DNA of 64,000 bases from Sutcliffiella horikoshii (GTDB taxonomy: Bacteria; Bacillota; Bacilli; Bacillales; Bacillaceae_I), in the NCBI GenBank assembly GCA_001636495.1, contig KV440964.1, positions 3,550,666 to 3,614,665 on the forward strand. Reading direction: 5' to 3'. This document shows positions 1 through 30,301 of this stretch, in pieces (within the stretch, counting starts at the first letter, position 1; each line of letters opens with the position of its first letter). The translations under genes and the position numbers were made by a program. Below the pieces are notes generated by a model. The model worked only from the letters and a program-made list of their open reading frames with translations, ran no database searches and had not been told where the DNA came from.

Positions 1-628
1 CACTGTAAGGAATCAAACTGTACATGGCAGGAGCTGTTTGAGGGTTGCCACCAATGTATAAAGTTTGTAGAGAGTAGGCTTCCCGGAGATGTTCATCCTT
101 GAAGAAGGTTCCAGCAAATTTTTTCGTGGATTGATAAGCTTTTAATCTGAGAAGAGACTTCAAGTTCTTTCCCGTCCAAAAATCCCTTTTTCTCGTAAAT
201 GATTTTTCCAGAAAGGAAGCCTGCCCTATCTCAAAGCTTTTGCGCATCTCTTCCATGTATTTCGTGAAACCTTCCTCTTCTCCAGGGAAAACTTCGCTCA
301 ATTCATTTAGTTGCCTATCGACGTCTTTGTACTTCGTGTACCTTTTTCCATCCTTGAAATGAATGGAGTACAAGGTATCAAGTCCCAGAAGCTCCCATGC
401 GTCACCTGAAACACCTGCCTCATCCAATATCCCTTTTAACATGTGAGGAAGGAGGACGATGGTTGGCCCTTTATCAATTCGGTAACCTTCTTTTTCGACA
501 AAAGATAGGCGACCTCCTGCTTGATTTTCTTTTTCATAGATGCTCACTTCAAATCCCTGCTTCTTTAAAAGAAGCGCTGTGATCATCCCACCTATTCCTG
601 CTCCTGCTATTGCAATATGTCTACTCAT
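1..628 (-). CDS. Carotenoid desaturase/oxygenase family protein (CrtI/CrtN-like), C-terminus outside window
   Basis: FAD-dependent amine-oxidase-fold enzyme of the phytoene desaturase family, expected to dehydrogenate or oxidise a carotenoid precursor at the membrane. About 209 N-terminal codons are visible; the rest lies beyond the left edge. The start reads MSRHIAIAGAGIGG, with the dinucleotide-binding GxGxxG at residues 9-14, followed by EKENQAGGR and GPTIVLLPH, both typical of CrtI/CrtN/CrtP proteins. The ATG overlaps the stop of the upstream desaturase by 4 bases (ATGA), so the two are probably translationally coupled. A paired arrangement of desaturase genes suggests one desaturase and one terminal oxidase, or two desaturation steps, but sequence alone does not say which is which. 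Confidence 0.85.
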   Translation of the reverse strand, partial: MSRHIAIAGAGIGGMITALLLKKQGFEVSIYEKENQAGGRLSFVEKEGYRIDKGPTIVLLPHMLKGILDEAGVSGDAWELLGLDTLYSIHFKDGKRYTKYKDVDRQLNELSEVFPGEEEGFTKYMEEMRKSFEIGQASFLEKSFTRKRDFWTGKNLKSLLRLKAYQSTKKFAGTFFKDEHLREAYSLQTLYIGGNPQTAPAMYSLIPYS

Positions 629-24663: not shown

Positions 24664-25806
24664 ATGACAGTGCGGAATAACCATTATTTTTCAGCAGCAT
24701 TATTAATAATCATGGGGTTTTTAGTAGTCTGTAACCTGTACACGTTGATTCCGCTGTATGATCAGATCAGTATGGAGTGGCGTGTTCCAACCGGCAAAGT
24801 TATACTGGCAAGCAGCTTCTTTAGCATCTTCTACGCCATCGGTCTGCTCACATTCGGCCCACTGTCCGATAGGTTCGGCAGGAAAGCCATCATCAGCTAT
24901 GGGTTTCTCTTTTCCGCTCTTGCCACGATTCTTGTATCCCAATCTACGAGTCTTTCTTATTTGTATCTCTCCCGCTCCATCCAAGGGTTTGCCTTAGGAT
25001 GCTTTGCTCCCGTCGCTTTTGCCTACTGCTTTGATCATTTCACCCAAACCCTTCGGACGTTTACGATTTCACTCATCAATGCAGGATTTTTGCTTTCTGG
25101 TATATTCGGATCGATGATAAGTGAAAAAGTGTCTTTTTATTATCAATGGGACGGAGTTTATGTATTCTTTGCACTTTTATATTTCTTATTGTTTTTGTTT
25201 TCCCTAGTTATTTTAAGACCTTCGAATGCTTCAGGAAGTATAGGGAAAGAGCCCTGGCGGCATTTTTTCGCACTATTGGCTGACCGTGATTTAAGGTTTC
25301 TTTATCTCATTGTTTTTTCCTTGCTGCTCTCCTTCGTGACTTTTTATGATAGTCTTTTTCAATACTTATCCAAGGAGTTTCCTGGAGAGTCATTCATGTT
25401 GGTCCGTTCCATCGGCCTGATAGGTACTGTTACCTGCCTGTTTTCGGATATTCTCCTGAAGCATATTGGTGCAAAACGCCTTATTCTCTTTTGCTCTTTG
25501 ACGATTTCCAGTACATTCTTTTTAATGATGTTCTTTCGTGAAAATCTTTTTTTAATTGGTGCCTTATCCATTATTTACGTCGCAGCCATTTCCTTTTTTC
25601 TACCTGCTGTCATCATCTATATTGGGATACTCGGAGAGAAATTGAGAGGAAGTGCGATTTCACTTTACTCATTTACTTTATTGATTGGAACTGCTCTAAG
25701 TCCCTTAATCAGTCATACCTTTAGTTTTCAATCTGCATTAGCATTTTTAGGGACTTGGTTCCTAGTTAATAGCTGGATGATTATTAGAATTAGGAAAGAT
25801 GCTTAA
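24664..25806 (+). CDS. MFS transporter
   Basis: 380-residue major facilitator with about 12 hydrophobic segments. The loop between TM2 and TM3 carries the signature GPLSDRFGRK, and RSIQGFALGCFAPVAFAY follows in TM4. The overall pattern resembles the YnfM/arabinose-efflux-like subgroup, but the substrate cannot be read from sequence. It is divergent from addB and convergent with yidC. The ribosome binding site AGGTGATAGAG before ATG 24664 is moderate. No regulator gene is adjacent. Confidence 0.85.
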   Translation: MTVRNNHYFSAALLIIMGFLVVCNLYTLIPLYDQISMEWRVPTGKVILASSFFSIFYAIGLLTFGPLSDRFGRKAIISYGFLFSALATILVSQSTSLSYLYLSRSIQGFALGCFAPVAFAYCFDHFTQTLRTFTISLINAGFLLSGIFGSMISEKVSFYYQWDGVYVFFALLYFLLFLFSLVILRPSNASGSIGKEPWRHFFALLADRDLRFLYLIVFSLLLSFVTFYDSLFQYLSKEFPGESFMLVRSIGLIGTVTCLFSDILLKHIGAKRLILFCSLTISSTFFLMMFFRENLFLIGALSIIYVAAISFFLPAVIIYIGILGEKLRGSAISLYSFTLLIGTALSPLISHTFSFQSALAFLGTWFLVNSWMIIRIRKDA

Positions 25807-25982: not shown

Positions 25983-26025
25983 AAAAAACCTCCAACTTCC
26001 ATGTATGGAGGTTAGAGGTTTGTAT
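25983..26025 (-). terminator. Terminator of yidC
   Basis: A stem formed by aacctccaa...tcca and its complement with small bulges, loop near 26003, with a T-run (minus strand) at 25988-25983. Confidence 0.7.
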
Positions 26026-26027
26026 AT

Positions 26028-26798
26028 TTATGTGCTCGGAACAGCTGTCATTTGTTCCATCTCTTTCAACGTTTTCATTCTCTTTTTCAAATAAAGGCCT
26101 TGTGCGATTCCAAACATATTCCCGACAACCCAGTATAGAGCTAATGCGGAAGGAAGTGTCAGACCGGCAATCAAGATGAACACTGGAATGATGTTCATGA
26201 CCATCTTCATCTGCGGCTGGATGTCATCTGTCAGTGTAACTCTTGTCTGAATAAATGTGGTGATGGCGGCCACTACCGGCAGGATATACATTGGATCAGG
26301 TTGTCCAAGACTTACCCAGAAGAATGAATGCTCGGCAATTTCCGTCGTTCTGCCAATTGCATAATAGAAAGCCATGATCACGGGCATCTGGATCAACATC
26401 GGAAAGCAACCTGCAGCAGGATTTACTTTATGGGCTTGATACAACCCCATCATTTCTGTTTGCATCTTTTTTTGATCATCGGGATTCCTTTTGTCTTTAT
26501 ATTTCTTTTGGATTGCTTCCATTTCAGGCTTGAGCTTTTGCATGGCTAGCATGTTTTTTTGCTGCTTCAATGCCAGTGGCAAAATAAGCGTGCGAATGGC
26601 AATGGTGACAAGAATGATCGAGATACCGTAACTTCCGCCTGTCCAACCTGCAACTGTCGTCAATGCCAAGGACAGTGGGTAGACGAAGTAATGATTCCAA
26701 ACTCCAGAACTATCAGCCGTGATCGGTTCACTCATATTACAACCTGTTAATAATGCTACTAACAATATTACTAAACTTACTGTCCAAAACTTTCTCAA
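26028..26798 (-). CDS. yidC: YidC/Oxa1-family membrane protein insertase (YidC2/YqjG type)
   Basis: 256-residue lipoprotein insertase that inserts and folds membrane proteins, alone or with Sec. A signal peptide ends at lipobox LLTGC with C20 as the lipidated residue. The conserved pore arginine is R69 (TIAIRTLILPL). Five transmembrane segments and the cytoplasmic hairpin (KLKPEMEAIQKKYKDK) are present. The start is TTG at 26798, preceded by AGGAGGA. It lies 27 bases after a MifM-like ORF whose 3' end can pair with this Shine-Dalgarno, as in the regulated yidC2 of B. subtilis. It is not next to rpmH/rnpA, so it is probably the inducible second insertase rather than SpoIIIJ. Confidence 0.93.
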   Translation of the reverse strand: MRKFWTVSLVILLVALLTGCNMSEPITADSSGVWNHYFVYPLSLALTTVAGWTGGSYGISIILVTIAIRTLILPLALKQQKNMLAMQKLKPEMEAIQKKYKDKRNPDDQKKMQTEMMGLYQAHKVNPAAGCFPMLIQMPVIMAFYYAIGRTTEIAEHSFFWVSLGQPDPMYILPVVAAITTFIQTRVTLTDDIQPQMKMVMNIIPVFILIAGLTLPSALALYWVVGNMFGIAQGLYLKKRMKTLKEMEQMTAVPST

Positions 26799-26803
26799 TG
26801 TGA

Positions 26804-26860
26804 ATTCCTCCTACTTTTTACAAGATTATCGATTCATGTAAGCAAAGTAGAGAGAGGAAT
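26804..26860 (-). promoter_or_regulatory. Hairpin sequestering the yidC Shine-Dalgarno
   Basis: On the transcript, the end of the upstream ORF (26860-26854 and 26849-26844) can pair with 26810-26804 and 26817-26812, which include the AGGAGG before yidC. A bulge of 4 versus 1 base separates the two helices of 7 and 6 bp. A ribosome paused in the last codons would open the left arm. Confidence 0.65.
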
Positions 26861-27098
26861 CTTCATCATCCAAGGTCGTTTCTTTTGTTGGTCTTTTTCT
26901 GAAAATAAACGTTATAAGCCTTCTTCTTTTACCGATGACTGACTGCTGCTTGTTCGTTTCAAGGTCCAAGGATGTCGTGTAGCCGTTATTTTGGCAGACC
27001 ACATACTTTGAATCCACGAAAAAGCAGAACGTCATCAGACAAAGAATGGCGGCTGTTACATATGGTGCATAGAGTAATATATCAAGATAAAATTCCAT
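26826..27098 (-). CDS. mifM: MifM-like regulatory arrest peptide upstream of yidC
   Basis: 90-residue protein with one N-terminal transmembrane segment (about 8-28) and a basic, then acidic, C-terminus. From R60 to D80 it lines up without gaps with the arrest region I recall for B. subtilis MifM (R69 to D89): R60, aliphatic 61, T63, aromatic F64, I65 and the acidic DDED at 77-80. The tail LYFA echoes the MifM SYWA end. In B. subtilis MifM senses membrane insertion: poor insertion prolongs the stall, opens an mRNA hairpin and turns on yidC2. Here the ORF ends 27 bases before yidC and the hairpin is present. AAAGGTG precedes the ATG at 27098. Homology is inferred from memory of the MifM motif. 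Confidence 0.8.
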   Translation of the reverse strand: MEFYLDILLYAPYVTAAILCLMTFCFFVDSKYVVCQNNGYTTSLDLETNKQQSVIGKRRRLITFIFRKRPTKETTLDDEDSSLYFAYMNR

Positions 27099-27191
27099 AT
27101 ATGTGCATTCACCTTTTTGTTTGAGTATAGTAGATACTACTTGTACGAACTGGGATTATATAAGTTTCATTTTAAAGTATATCCTTACAAG

Positions 27192-27236
27192 AAAAAGATA
27201 CACCTAGTCTGCAAAAAATGCTAGGTGTATCTTTTT
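27192..27236 (-). terminator. Terminator of the RND transporter gene
   Basis: 16-bp arms 27192-27207 and 27221-27236, ending in a T-run on the minus strand. Confidence 0.85.
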
Positions 27237-27244
27237 GTAAATTT

Positions 27245-30200
27245 TTATGCTTCTTTCACTTTCTTCCGCTTAATCACAATATAGAATGCTGGTACAAACA
27301 ACAGCGTAAAGAATGTGGAGAAGAAAATCCCTGAAATAATCGAAATCGCAAGTGGGGTAAATAATACATCCCCGCTGAATGCTATTGGAAGCAACGCGGC
27401 AATGGATGTAAAGGCCGTCAGTACGACCGGTCGCAATCTGGCTTTACCTGAATCAATGACCGCCTCACTCAGAGTTGCACCGTCTTGCAAACGGGATTCC
27501 ATGAATTCAATGAATACTGTCGCATTCCGGACCACTATTCCCGCAAGTGATACAATCCCCATCATAGCCATGAATCCTAGTCCGGTTTGAGTGATGAACA
27601 AGCCTATCATCGCACCTGAAATGGCCAAATACACGGAACTCATGATTAACAATGGCAGTCTTAATGAATTGAACTGAACAACCATTAAGATATAAATCAG
27701 GAAAATAACGATCAAGAACAGTTTTCCTACTTCGATAAAGAAGTCACTTCTTGCAGAAGATTCTCCTCCCACAGAAACGGAAATACTATCTGTTTCATAG
27801 GATGCTGCTATATCTTTCACTTCTGCTTCTAATTTCTGTTTGTCATCCTCCCCTGGATACACACGGACCGTTATGGTTCTCTCTCCGTCTTTATGGGGAA
27901 TCAATGGCAACACTTCTGTTTCCTCAACAGACACCAGCTCGGATAGCGGTATGAGAACCGGCGCTCCAAATTCGGTCGTTTCTGTTTTACTTGGAAGTTC
28001 CAACGCATCAAGATCGATTGTTTTCCCATCTTCTAAAAGGTCTTGGACGATGGTCAGCGTTTCTCTCTCAAGTCCTGCTTCATAGGAACCGACGGGGATT
28101 CCTTCTGTAACAAGTCTGATTTGATTGCTTATTTCCTGAGAGGTGATGCCATGCTCTTCCATTGCATCCCTATTTGGAACATAGTTTATGGTAGGTTGCG
28201 GGGACCCTACATCATCGATGACTGCTCCGCTTCCTTCCAAGCTTTCAATCTCTTCTTTCATCCCATTGACGGAGTCCATCAACTCTTCGATATCTTCCCC
28301 GACTACTGTCAGAGCGATTGGAGCTCCAACAGGAGGCCCTGCTTCAATTGTGGAAAGCATAACCACTGCATCCGGGTTTTCATCTCGTAGTTTAGGCTGC
28401 CACTGGGCAATCGTATCTGCCGAAGACTGCTGTTCACGGTCGACCCTGATGACAATCTGCCCAGTGTTTTCACCTGAGTTGGATAATGTGCTGCCGAATA
28501 TCCCGGGTTCTCCGCTCCCTGCAAAGATGGTCGTTTCGTAAATTGCTTCATCTGTTTTGATGCTCTCTTCCATCTGTTGAAGCCTTGATTCTGTTTCCTC
28601 AAGCGGTGTCCCTGCAGGATAAGTGACGGACACAGTTACCTCTTCACGATCTGCACTTGGGAAAAATACGACCGGAATAAATGGAACAAGTGCGTAACTC
28701 GCTGTACAGAATGTAAGAACAGCAAGTCCTGTGAGTAAAGGTTTTTTTACAACTTTTGTTAAAACTTTCGAACTATACCAGTTACTAACTTTATCAAATT
28801 GTGACCCGAGCAGGCCGTCTTTCGTTTTTTTATGCTTCTTTTTCTTTTGACGCCATGCCATGAAAATCGGAACGATGGTCAAAGCGACAATGGTAGAACC
28901 GATGATTGTGGCGATTAAGACGGTCGGAAGTGCGGAAATAAAGGCACCGTTCGGACCACCAAGGAATGTCAATGGCAAGAAAGTAAAGACAATGGCCAAG
29001 GTAGAGGTAATGATCGATACCCTGACTTCTTTTGTTCCTTTGATGGCACCTTCAAGCGGACCGTCTCCAAGCTGGTAACGTCTTTGAATATTGTCATTCA
29101 CTACAATGGCATCATCCACCAAGATTCCTAGCGCAATGATGATTCCGATAATGGAAATCTGGTTTAAATCTACATTTACATACGGAAGGGGAATCAATCC
29201 AAGCGCTATCGAGATAGGAATGGAGATTGCCACCAGAATGGCAGAAACGGCATTTAATCCAAAGAAAGTAATTAATACCACTGCCAAAATGGAAATTAGG
29301 AATGAAATTCCCAAATCTTTAAAAATCTTGGACACAATATCATTTTGAGTATAATAGAGATCCATCTCCACTTCTTCTGGCAGGTCTTTTGCCAGACGCT
29401 CCATCTCAGCATCGACTTTTGCATGAAGGGTCGGAATGTCCACTCCTTTTTCCTGCATGATGGTTAAGGAAAGGGCAGGTGTTCCATTATACGTTATAAA
29501 ATCCTCCTGTTCTGTCGGGATCTGTGTCAGGCTTGCGATATCACCGACATAAAGGGAATTGCCTTCTTCATCCTTCTTCAGAAAAACATTTTCCACTTCT
29601 TCTATGTTTTCAATGTGTTCAAAAGTCAGCTGAGAAATCCTGTTTCCTTCTTGTTGACTGCCAAGCGGCGTGATTTCCAGCTCGTTCTGGATAGCTGTTA
29701 TTACATCAGGAAGCAACACTCTTTCTTCCTGCATACTTTCCGAATCCAAGTTAAGCGTGTAACTAGACTCTTCCAGTCCTTTTACGGTGACTTTTCGTAC
29801 TCCATCAATTTTCTCCAATTGAGGAATCCAATTTTCAATAACATCCTTTTGCTCCAGTAAAAGTTCCCGGTCCTCGTGGATGATATTATAGGAAGCAATG
29901 GCCCCCATTTGAATGTCCGAGTTGACTGTCGGTTCAAAAGCGTCTTCCGGGAACTCCCGGCTTACATCTGACACTTTTTGCTGGACAAGGGAAAATACTT
30001 TGTCCCTGTCTGCATCATCCGTCAGTTCCATTACGATATTGGAAATCCCCAATCCAGAGATGGAAGTGACACTGTCCATCCCATCGATATCCAACAGTTC
30101 CTTTTCAAGCGGGGTGGTGATATCCCGTTCGACCACGTTCGGTGCAGCACCTGGATAGACGGTTGTTATCGTCCCGACATTCAAAGAGATCTCAGGAATC

Positions 30201-30301
30201 TCCCGTTTTGGTATTTGAAAATAGGTCAATGAACCAATGACCACCAATAATAGTAGAAAAATCAATGTTACCTTTGGCTTTTTAATGAGTGCATTAAACA
30301 C
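27245..30301 (-). CDS. RND-family efflux transporter permease (AcrB/SwrC-like)
   Basis: 1018-residue inner-membrane pump of the resistance-nodulation-division superfamily, with TM1 at residues 12-30, a large extracellular loop, TM2-6, a second loop and TM8-12. The proton-relay acidic pair is visible in LGILVDDAIVVNDN near residue 395. In Gram-positives such proteins (SwrC/YerP) export surfactin-like lipopeptides or confer biocide resistance; the substrate here is unknown. No membrane-fusion protein or TetR gene is adjacent, so it seems to be monocistronic. The start is GTG at 30301 after GGAGG. It is not in the equivalent B. subtilis region. Confidence 0.9.
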   Translation of the reverse strand: MFNALIKKPKVTLIFLLLLVVIGSLTYFQIPKREIPEISLNVGTITTVYPGAAPNVVERDITTPLEKELLDIDGMDSVTSISGLGISNIVMELTDDADRDKVFSLVQQKVSDVSREFPEDAFEPTVNSDIQMGAIASYNIIHEDRELLLEQKDVIENWIPQLEKIDGVRKVTVKGLEESSYTLNLDSESMQEERVLLPDVITAIQNELEITPLGSQQEGNRISQLTFEHIENIEEVENVFLKKDEEGNSLYVGDIASLTQIPTEQEDFITYNGTPALSLTIMQEKGVDIPTLHAKVDAEMERLAKDLPEEVEMDLYYTQNDIVSKIFKDLGISFLISILAVVLITFFGLNAVSAILVAISIPISIALGLIPLPYVNVDLNQISIIGIIIALGILVDDAIVVNDNIQRRYQLGDGPLEGAIKGTKEVRVSIITSTLAIVFTFLPLTFLGGPNGAFISALPTVLIATIIGSTIVALTIVPIFMAWRQKKKKHKKTKDGLLGSQFDKVSNWYSSKVLTKVVKKPLLTGLAVLTFCTASYALVPFIPVVFFPSADREEVTVSVTYPAGTPLEETESRLQQMEESIKTDEAIYETTIFAGSGEPGIFGSTLSNSGENTGQIVIRVDREQQSSADTIAQWQPKLRDENPDAVVMLSTIEAGPPVGAPIALTVVGEDIEELMDSVNGMKEEIESLEGSGAVIDDVGSPQPTINYVPNRDAMEEHGITSQEISNQIRLVTEGIPVGSYEAGLERETLTIVQDLLEDGKTIDLDALELPSKTETTEFGAPVLIPLSELVSVEETEVLPLIPHKDGERTITVRVYPGEDDKQKLEAEVKDIAASYETDSISVSVGGESSARSDFFIEVGKLFLIVIFLIYILMVVQFNSLRLPLLIMSSVYLAISGAMIGLFITQTGLGFMAMMGIVSLAGIVVRNATVFIEFMESRLQDGATLSEAVIDSGKARLRPVVLTAFTSIAALLPIAFSGDVLFTPLAISIISGIFFSTFFTLLFVPAFYIVIKRKKVKEA

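Follow-up and report, generated by a model that had tools for sequence, protein, structure and literature searches.

MifM (YqzJ), the 95 amino acid leader of yidC2 (yqjG) in Bacillus subtilis, serves as the reference among arrest peptides that monitor membrane insertion, and from its structure the residues that stall a Gram-positive ribosome are known. It is located before yidC2, has an N-terminal transmembrane (TM) segment and carries an acidic DEED near its end. Its arrest motif was published as RIXXWIXXXXXMNXXXXDEED (PMC7897499), with the letters F78-R79-M80-N81-S82, DEED and A90-G91-S92, and D89 is the first mapped arrest site (PMC4423224). The MifM cluster described by Fujiwara et al. (2024) counts 572 sequences and 592 Firmicutes genomes (PMC10987492). 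Two further leaders are described with an N-terminal TM segment: CliM of Clostridia, a YidC-monitoring arrest leader with a stem-loop that represses yidC2, which differs by its KWxIW motif (PMC13183943), and ApcA of actinobacteria, an arrest leader upstream of a secondary yidC that has R-A-P-G near the arrest site (PMC7897499, PMC10987492).

In this work we looked at a 64-kb stretch of the Sutcliffiella horikoshii genome (the window). A sequence-only reading of it had proposed a MifM-like arrest peptide and a hairpin masking the Shine-Dalgarno (SD) sequence of yidC2, which a stalled ribosome would open. The architecture (TM leader, acidic stall site, hairpin over the SD) and the putative mechanism, with yidC2 as target, find support in sequence conservation, selection at the codon level, controlled RNA folds and a test of ribosome geometry; the interpretation as a whole is partly supported and the observation behind it partly confirmed. 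As we read the filters of the Fujiwara cluster (position upstream of yidC, N-terminal TM segment, soluble part of >30 aa and, within residues 70-100, a local stretch of strong negative charge), the window's leader passes them (PMC10987492). Since that cluster was found in 592 Firmicutes genomes, the kind of leader is known, and the window's arrest motif is a variant of it.

Gene Neighborhood and Distribution

The genome has two YidC genes, and directly upstream of the secondary one, at a distance of 27 nt and in the position of a B. subtilis-type MifM, lies a 90-codon ORF (Table 1). This ORF is a real, conserved leader of the secondary yidC in Sutcliffiella. It was found in nine named genomes at 54-92% identity by a scan that reaches close relatives only, the nearest being S. 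horikoshii strains (84-92% identical), and in 11 close orthologues codons 2-84 give a pN/pS of 0.09 in frame and of 1.8 and 2.6 in the wrong frames. The AAGGTGA of its probable SD is kept in 8 of the 9 named orthologues, the exception being L011. Searches of Pfam and NCBIfam (up to E 1) and of PDB sequences (up to E 10) found nothing for the leader.

TABLE 1. Features of the leader-yidC2 region, in window coordinates.
Feature	Position	Strand	Basis
Probable terminator of the upstream RND gene: 16-bp perfect inverted repeat and T run	27192..27236	-	sequence
Probable leader SD, AAAAGGTGA	27109..27117	-	by eye
MifM-like leader ORF, 90 aa, ATG start	26826..27098	-	ORF calls, orthologues, in-frame pN/pS 0.09
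Predicted TM segment, codons 7-25, most hydrophobic 19-residue stretch	27024..27080	-	hydropathy window; many invariant residues
Presumed arrest segment, KRRRLITFIFRKRPTKETTLDDED, codons 57-80	26859..26930	-	pN/pS 0.07; aligned to Bacillus MifM arrest segment in pooled profile comparison
K-R-P, codons 68-70 (K68-R69-P70), K-x-P motif of the non-Bacillus class	26889..26897	-	invariant in 10/10 aligned orthologues
DDED, codons 77-80 (D77-D-E-D80), presumed stall site	26859..26870	-	sequence, orthologues, SD-release geometry
Hairpin 5' arm (26861-26854 and 26850-26844), inside codons 80-85	26844..26861	-	fold, orthologue pairing
Hairpin 3' arm (26803-26810, pairing with 26861-26854, and 26811-26817, pairing with 26850-26844)	26803..26817	-	fold, orthologue pairing
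yidC2 Shine-Dalgarno, AGGAGG	26807..26812	-	paired 1.0 in full fold
yidC2 (secondary YidC/Oxa1 insertase), 256 aa, TTG start, presumed target	26028..26798	-	PF02096, E 2.1e-54
Inverted repeat (arms 88% complementary) with T run 3' of yidC2, probable operon terminator (leader-yidC2)	25986..26021	-	sequence

Inverted repeats follow both the upstream RND gene and yidC2, therefore the leader and yidC2 look like a two-gene unit. The repeat behind the RND gene was missed by the terminator scan because its loop exceeds the limit of the scan, and the promoter scan recognized no - strand site for the leader-yidC2 operon. Rfam gave no match at gathering score in the 64-kb window; five sub-gathering matches in the region were rejected, being weak and looking like chance. 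The gene that ends just upstream of the leader (27245-30301) encodes an RND-family transporter of 1018 aa (ACR_tran, E 2.3e-168), which may resemble the SwrC pumps of Bacillus, and an MFS transporter gene (24664-25806; PF07690, E 1.1e-36) is convergent toward the operon. The TTG start of yidC2 is at 26796-26798; among 14 unique Sutcliffiella-type leaders the downstream gene starts with TTG in seven (one of them, L025, ambiguous) and with ATG in seven, so the strength of initiation may vary between species.

The profile of the window's leader finds leaders in 15 of 18 genomes of GTDB family f1. In the order sample, all 15 f1 genomes with two YidC genes have the leader and neither of the two with one does; for family f44 the corresponding counts are 14/14 genomes with two or more YidC genes and 0/1 with one. 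In G013 and G001, of the same family as the window, only one YidC is encoded and the leader is not matched, so that leader and yidC2 are absent together; no leader match was found in G003 (80% complete), whose YidC genes were left uncounted. These data bear on the idea that the ORF encodes a small membrane protein of independent function and shares an operon with yidC2 by chance, as the strong conservation of its TM half could suggest. We consider this highly improbable, since Pfam and NCBIfam gave no match, the last codons are not conserved as protein (see below), and the ORF was not found in the three single-YidC genomes of f1 and f44.

In the sample of the order, a search with the window's profile alone recovers leaders from 26 of 397 genomes, belonging to 4 of 135 genera; more divergent leaders escape it and were found by position. 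Forty regions were fetched, two of which missed the upstream side; a TM-plus-acidic leader was seen in 23 of the remaining 38 and none in 15. Nine of these 15 leaderless regions have, by eye, rnpA or yidD upstream, as at the primary yidC, and from the 15 the 11 leaderless yidC controls for SD pairing were drawn. A degenerate DNA pattern of the B. subtilis type (W-I..M-N..DEED, <=1 mismatch) was found in 5 of the 397 genomes, all of one genus, and 60 genomes of the family of that genus gave 24 yidC2 loci, again all of the same genus; 23 of them have a recognized leader, L125 being the only Bacillus yidC2 locus of the 24 without one.

Relation of the Leader to MifM

The segment R60-D80 aligns without gaps to R69-D89 of MifM at an offset of 9, both against the published motif (PMC7897499) and against L123, a leader that carries the published B. 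subtilis MifM letters. The sequence-only reading was right in this, as well as in listing R60, T63, F64, I65 and D77-D-E-D80. In the alignment R60 equals R69 and I65 equals I74, DDED replaces DEED as the acidic run close to the C-terminal, and F64 stands for W73 and L61 for I70, both conservative changes. The same reading correctly saw an aromatic F in place of W and no Met equivalent to M80, as T71/K72 are found at M80/N81; K-R-P is found where Bacillus has K-V-F/I. Among the critical tunnel residues R69, I70, W73, I74, M80 and N81 only R69 and I74 are kept, and W73, M80 and N81, which are needed in B. subtilis MifM, are absent here. On the ribosomal side, F85, R86 and M90 of B. subtilis uL22 are all present in the uL22 of this genome. 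Stalling of MifM in B. subtilis was reduced by a K at position 90 and restored by M (PMC4423224), thus the ribosome is of the permissive type at this position.

The spacer from the TM segment to the acidic end is 55 residues in the window's leader (hydropathy window 7-25) and has a median of 58 and a range of 49-62 across 71 leaders (hydropathy only); the published MifM median is 54, for which the definitions may differ (PMC10987492). The tail after the acidic run has 10 residues here and 6 in MifM. It was claimed that the end of the tail, LYFA, echoes SYWA of MifM; yet L123, with the published letters (A90, G91 and S92 in PMC4423224), ends with DEED-AGSLLL, therefore SYWA was a mistake. The tail SSLYFA was also rejected as part of the arrest motif, as its amino acids drift, except for Y84, whose codon lies in the hairpin and which is invariant across 10 aligned orthologues.

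Lack of similarity to MifM in a profile search had been named in advance as a ground for refuting the relation. Direct comparison of Sutcliffiella with Bacillus leaders by hhalign is indeed not significant (probability 0.82% with 5 sequences, 0.67% with 23), and similarity comes via bridging families only: Sutcliffiella against f44 gives 99.5%, f44 against the leaders of f3, f6, f12, f35 and f42 gives 95%, and all of these pooled against Bacillus give 70% (E 4e-5), or 63% without Sutcliffiella, which makes this final link a moderate one. The arrest segment lies within the 70% alignment, and the best of 40 column-shuffled controls gives 5.9%; the profile groups did not include L026. The TM half gave no significant similarity to that of Bacillus MifM. 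Through related leaders, the window's leader is thereby linked by profile to the broad-sense Bacillales MifM-like group, and common descent with Bacillus MifM is probable. Going by its tunnel residues and direct profile, the leader is not a B. subtilis-type MifM; it falls in a broader class that shares the layout and mostly has K-x-P.

The Hairpin that Masks the yidC2 Shine-Dalgarno

The pairing of the last leader codons with the SD of yidC2 was found as the sequence-only reading had claimed it (Table 1): the 5' arm lies within the last codons of the leader and AGGAGG is buried. As in MifM, the codons that mask the SD coincide with the acidic run or follow it immediately. The hairpin folds with -23.0 kcal/mol (z -2.84), and 4 of 200 dinucleotide shuffles are at least as stable. 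In 14 orthologues 85.9% of the hairpin cells are paired, vs. 41-58% after a shift of the partner by 1-3 columns. There is weak covariation, as four pairs changed on both sides, a value that 7/500 shuffles reach and that is also seen in two of the six slid versions.

Synonymous recoding of the last 21 codons reaches the window's SD pairing of 1.0 in 2 of 100 cases; for other single leaders between 0 and 59 of 100 recodings pair the SD equally well. Across 52 unique leaders the mean SD pairing is 0.92 vs. 0.67 after recoding, the latter being high because the amino acids themselves favor pairing. The 11 yidC genes without such a leader have a mean of 0.44 (range 0.02-0.79), and the SD of the primary yidC of this genome is paired 0.28.

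Protein Selection Probably Gives Way to RNA Constraint

In the 11 close orthologues, a set that omits three divergent ones, pN/pS is 0.06 in codons 2-30, 0.09 in codons 31-56 and 0.07 in codons 57-80; with all 14 it is 0.22 for the whole, 0.16 for codons 57-80 and 0.59 for codons 81-89. In the close set codons 81-89 have a pN of 0.17 and a pS of 0.23, vs. 0.04 and 0.45 for codons 2-84. Out of 5000 random codon sets, pN was as high in one, pS as low in 135 and both in none, and none of the 70 nine-codon windows in codons 2-79 matches codons 81-89 in pN and only one in low pS. Where the acidic run ends (codon 80), pN rises abruptly. The decrease of pS is gradual, starting at about codon 66, and codons 10-18 are also low (pS 0.28), so the silent constraint extends beyond the hairpin. 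We read this as protein selection that stops at the presumed stall site, where RNA pairing takes over. By eye, the anti-SD pyrimidine run of L027-L031 is in another codon phase than that of the window (F-L-L vs. S-S), which would be the outcome if selection there maintains RNA pairing instead of the peptide.

Two groups of Bacillus were compared in the same manner. In the tail of the B. subtilis group pN is raised (39 of 3000 sets as high) and the silent constraint is unclear (1297/3000 as low; both in 14), and in a second Bacillus clade the tail is without silent change (460 of 3000 sets as low) and pN is again raised (92 sets; both in none).

Predicted Position of the Ribosome that Frees the Shine-Dalgarno

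A virtual ribosome was placed so that it covered the RNA up to 15 nt beyond the first P-site base, a standard toeprint distance, and the remaining RNA was refolded. The opening codon was defined as the first at which SD pairing drops to 60% of its value, and a leader was usable if its SD was paired at least 0.7 and an opening was found. In the window SD pairing is 1.0 up to codon 75 and 0.95, 0.84, 0.55, 0.42 and 0.46 at codons 76-80, hence the predicted opening falls at the acidic run, as in MifM. P-sites at codons 79-90 leave a pairing of 0.42-0.70, so in this model the SD is partly, not wholly, free. For L123 the drop, from 0.9 to 0.08, comes at codon 87 of its 93-residue reading, which is D89 of the 95-residue MifM.

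From a sample of 70 leaders, four without a recognized SD were omitted, 66 were folded and 60 were usable (L035, L036, L037, L081, L088 and L103 were not). The opening codon and the final acidic-run residue are at most 3 codons apart in 59 of the 60, L091 being off by 4, a count that is not made of independent tests as the leaders are related. The median difference between opening and acid-end codon is -0.5, with r 0.92 and 0 of 5000 permutations as good. This agreement offers a simple rule for stall-site prediction in uncharacterized leaders.

Another option is plain translational coupling, in which ribosomes that read or terminate the leader open the hairpin without peptide-driven arrest. 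The hairpin overlaps the end of the leader, and P-sites at codons 88-90 likewise lower the pairing, to 0.42; SD pairing is thus also reduced by ribosomes close to the stop codon, so simple coupling predicts part of the pattern. It does not explain, however, why codons 57-80 are under protein-level selection (pN/pS 0.07) that is lost after codon 80, why several families have the acidic run in common, or why this run matches the opening codon, and we regard it as improbable.

A Probable Mechanism of the MifM Type

Based on these data the leader very probably works like MifM, as a monitoring substrate that would stall its own ribosome to switch on yidC2. The N-terminal TM segment would be inserted by YidC with the chain still on the ribosome. 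When insertion is prompt, the pull on the chain would prevent or release the arrest and the ribosome would finish; the codons after the acidic run would pair with the yidC2 SD and yidC2 would be off. When YidC capacity is down, the chain would arrest the ribosome around D77-D80, and this ribosome, sitting on the 5' arm of the hairpin, would expose the SD so that yidC2 is made. The contacts with the tunnel would be K68-R69-P70 together with R60, F64 and I65, instead of the W73 and M80-N81 of B. subtilis.

The leader may also arrest the ribosome in order to monitor something besides YidC capacity, such as SecYEG, membrane potential or tunnel stress, since a trigger cannot be read from a sequence and the TM half lacks significant similarity to its Bacillus counterpart. 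We find this unlikely, as yidC2 is the gene that follows, the leaders have the short, uniform spacer that was reported where YidC is monitored (PMC10987492), and MifM and CliM, two leaders of such layout, are described as responding to YidC (PMC13183943).

Two Motif Classes among Bacillales Leaders

Comparison of the leaders gives two motifs. In Bacillus, W-I-x-K-V with R-M is present in 23/23 leaders. In seven other GTDB families, [K/R]-x-P is found in 47 of 48 leaders, 40 to 10 residues before the end, the exception being L092 with R-N-I-P; the motif proline is 3-9, mostly 6-9, residues before the acidic cluster. As background, 1 of 47 non-Bacillus proteins has [K/R]-x-P in residues 26-55. 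A motif filter kept 93 of 95 candidate rows and dropped an unrelated membrane protein (L034) and a true leader (L092, restored), so a count of 47/47 would be partly by construction, and with L092 it becomes 47/48. Of the 48, 26 were found by position, TM segment and acidic run alone, without the window's profile, and 25 of these carry the motif.

By its motif the window's leader can be assigned to the [K/R]-x-P class and not to the W-I..R-M class. This modifies the suggestion that the missing W and Met reflect a differently tuned arrest: both are indeed missing, but the change is a class mark in seven GTDB families and not private to the species, and the F-for-W exchange and lost Met were rejected as species-private tuning because 47/48 leaders outside Bacillus carry the other motif.

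We can tentatively suggest, with somewhat less than even confidence, that the Bacillales yidC2 leaders may share one architecture (TM segment, spacer of ~55-60 residues, acidic run and an anti-SD arm under the stalled ribosome) with two motifs that grip the tunnel. The W-I..M-N form solved by cryo-EM would then be the special case of Bacillus, and the common form, that of the window, would grip the tunnel via a K-x-P mostly 6-9 residues before the acidic run, by an arrest mechanism that is not known to have been studied. Neither Sutcliffiella nor cereus, KIP or RKIP occurs in the main text of PMC10987492, and no title or abstract opening among the matches listed for MifM and related terms names the K-x-P class, which may already have been published. 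In these leaders the acidic run, the spacing and the hairpin are kept and most MifM stalling residues are replaced. They provide a natural test that could tell the essential tunnel contacts from the others and show if K-x-P holds the chain at the constriction in a second way.

At most other YidC loci scanned, with a strict test for YidC, no such leader was found. The leaders L138, L139 and L144, from other genera of the Bacillus family f43, have W-I motifs and shorter acidic runs (DDD, DD); they look like W-I variants, stand outside the class counts and are possible intermediates between both motif classes.
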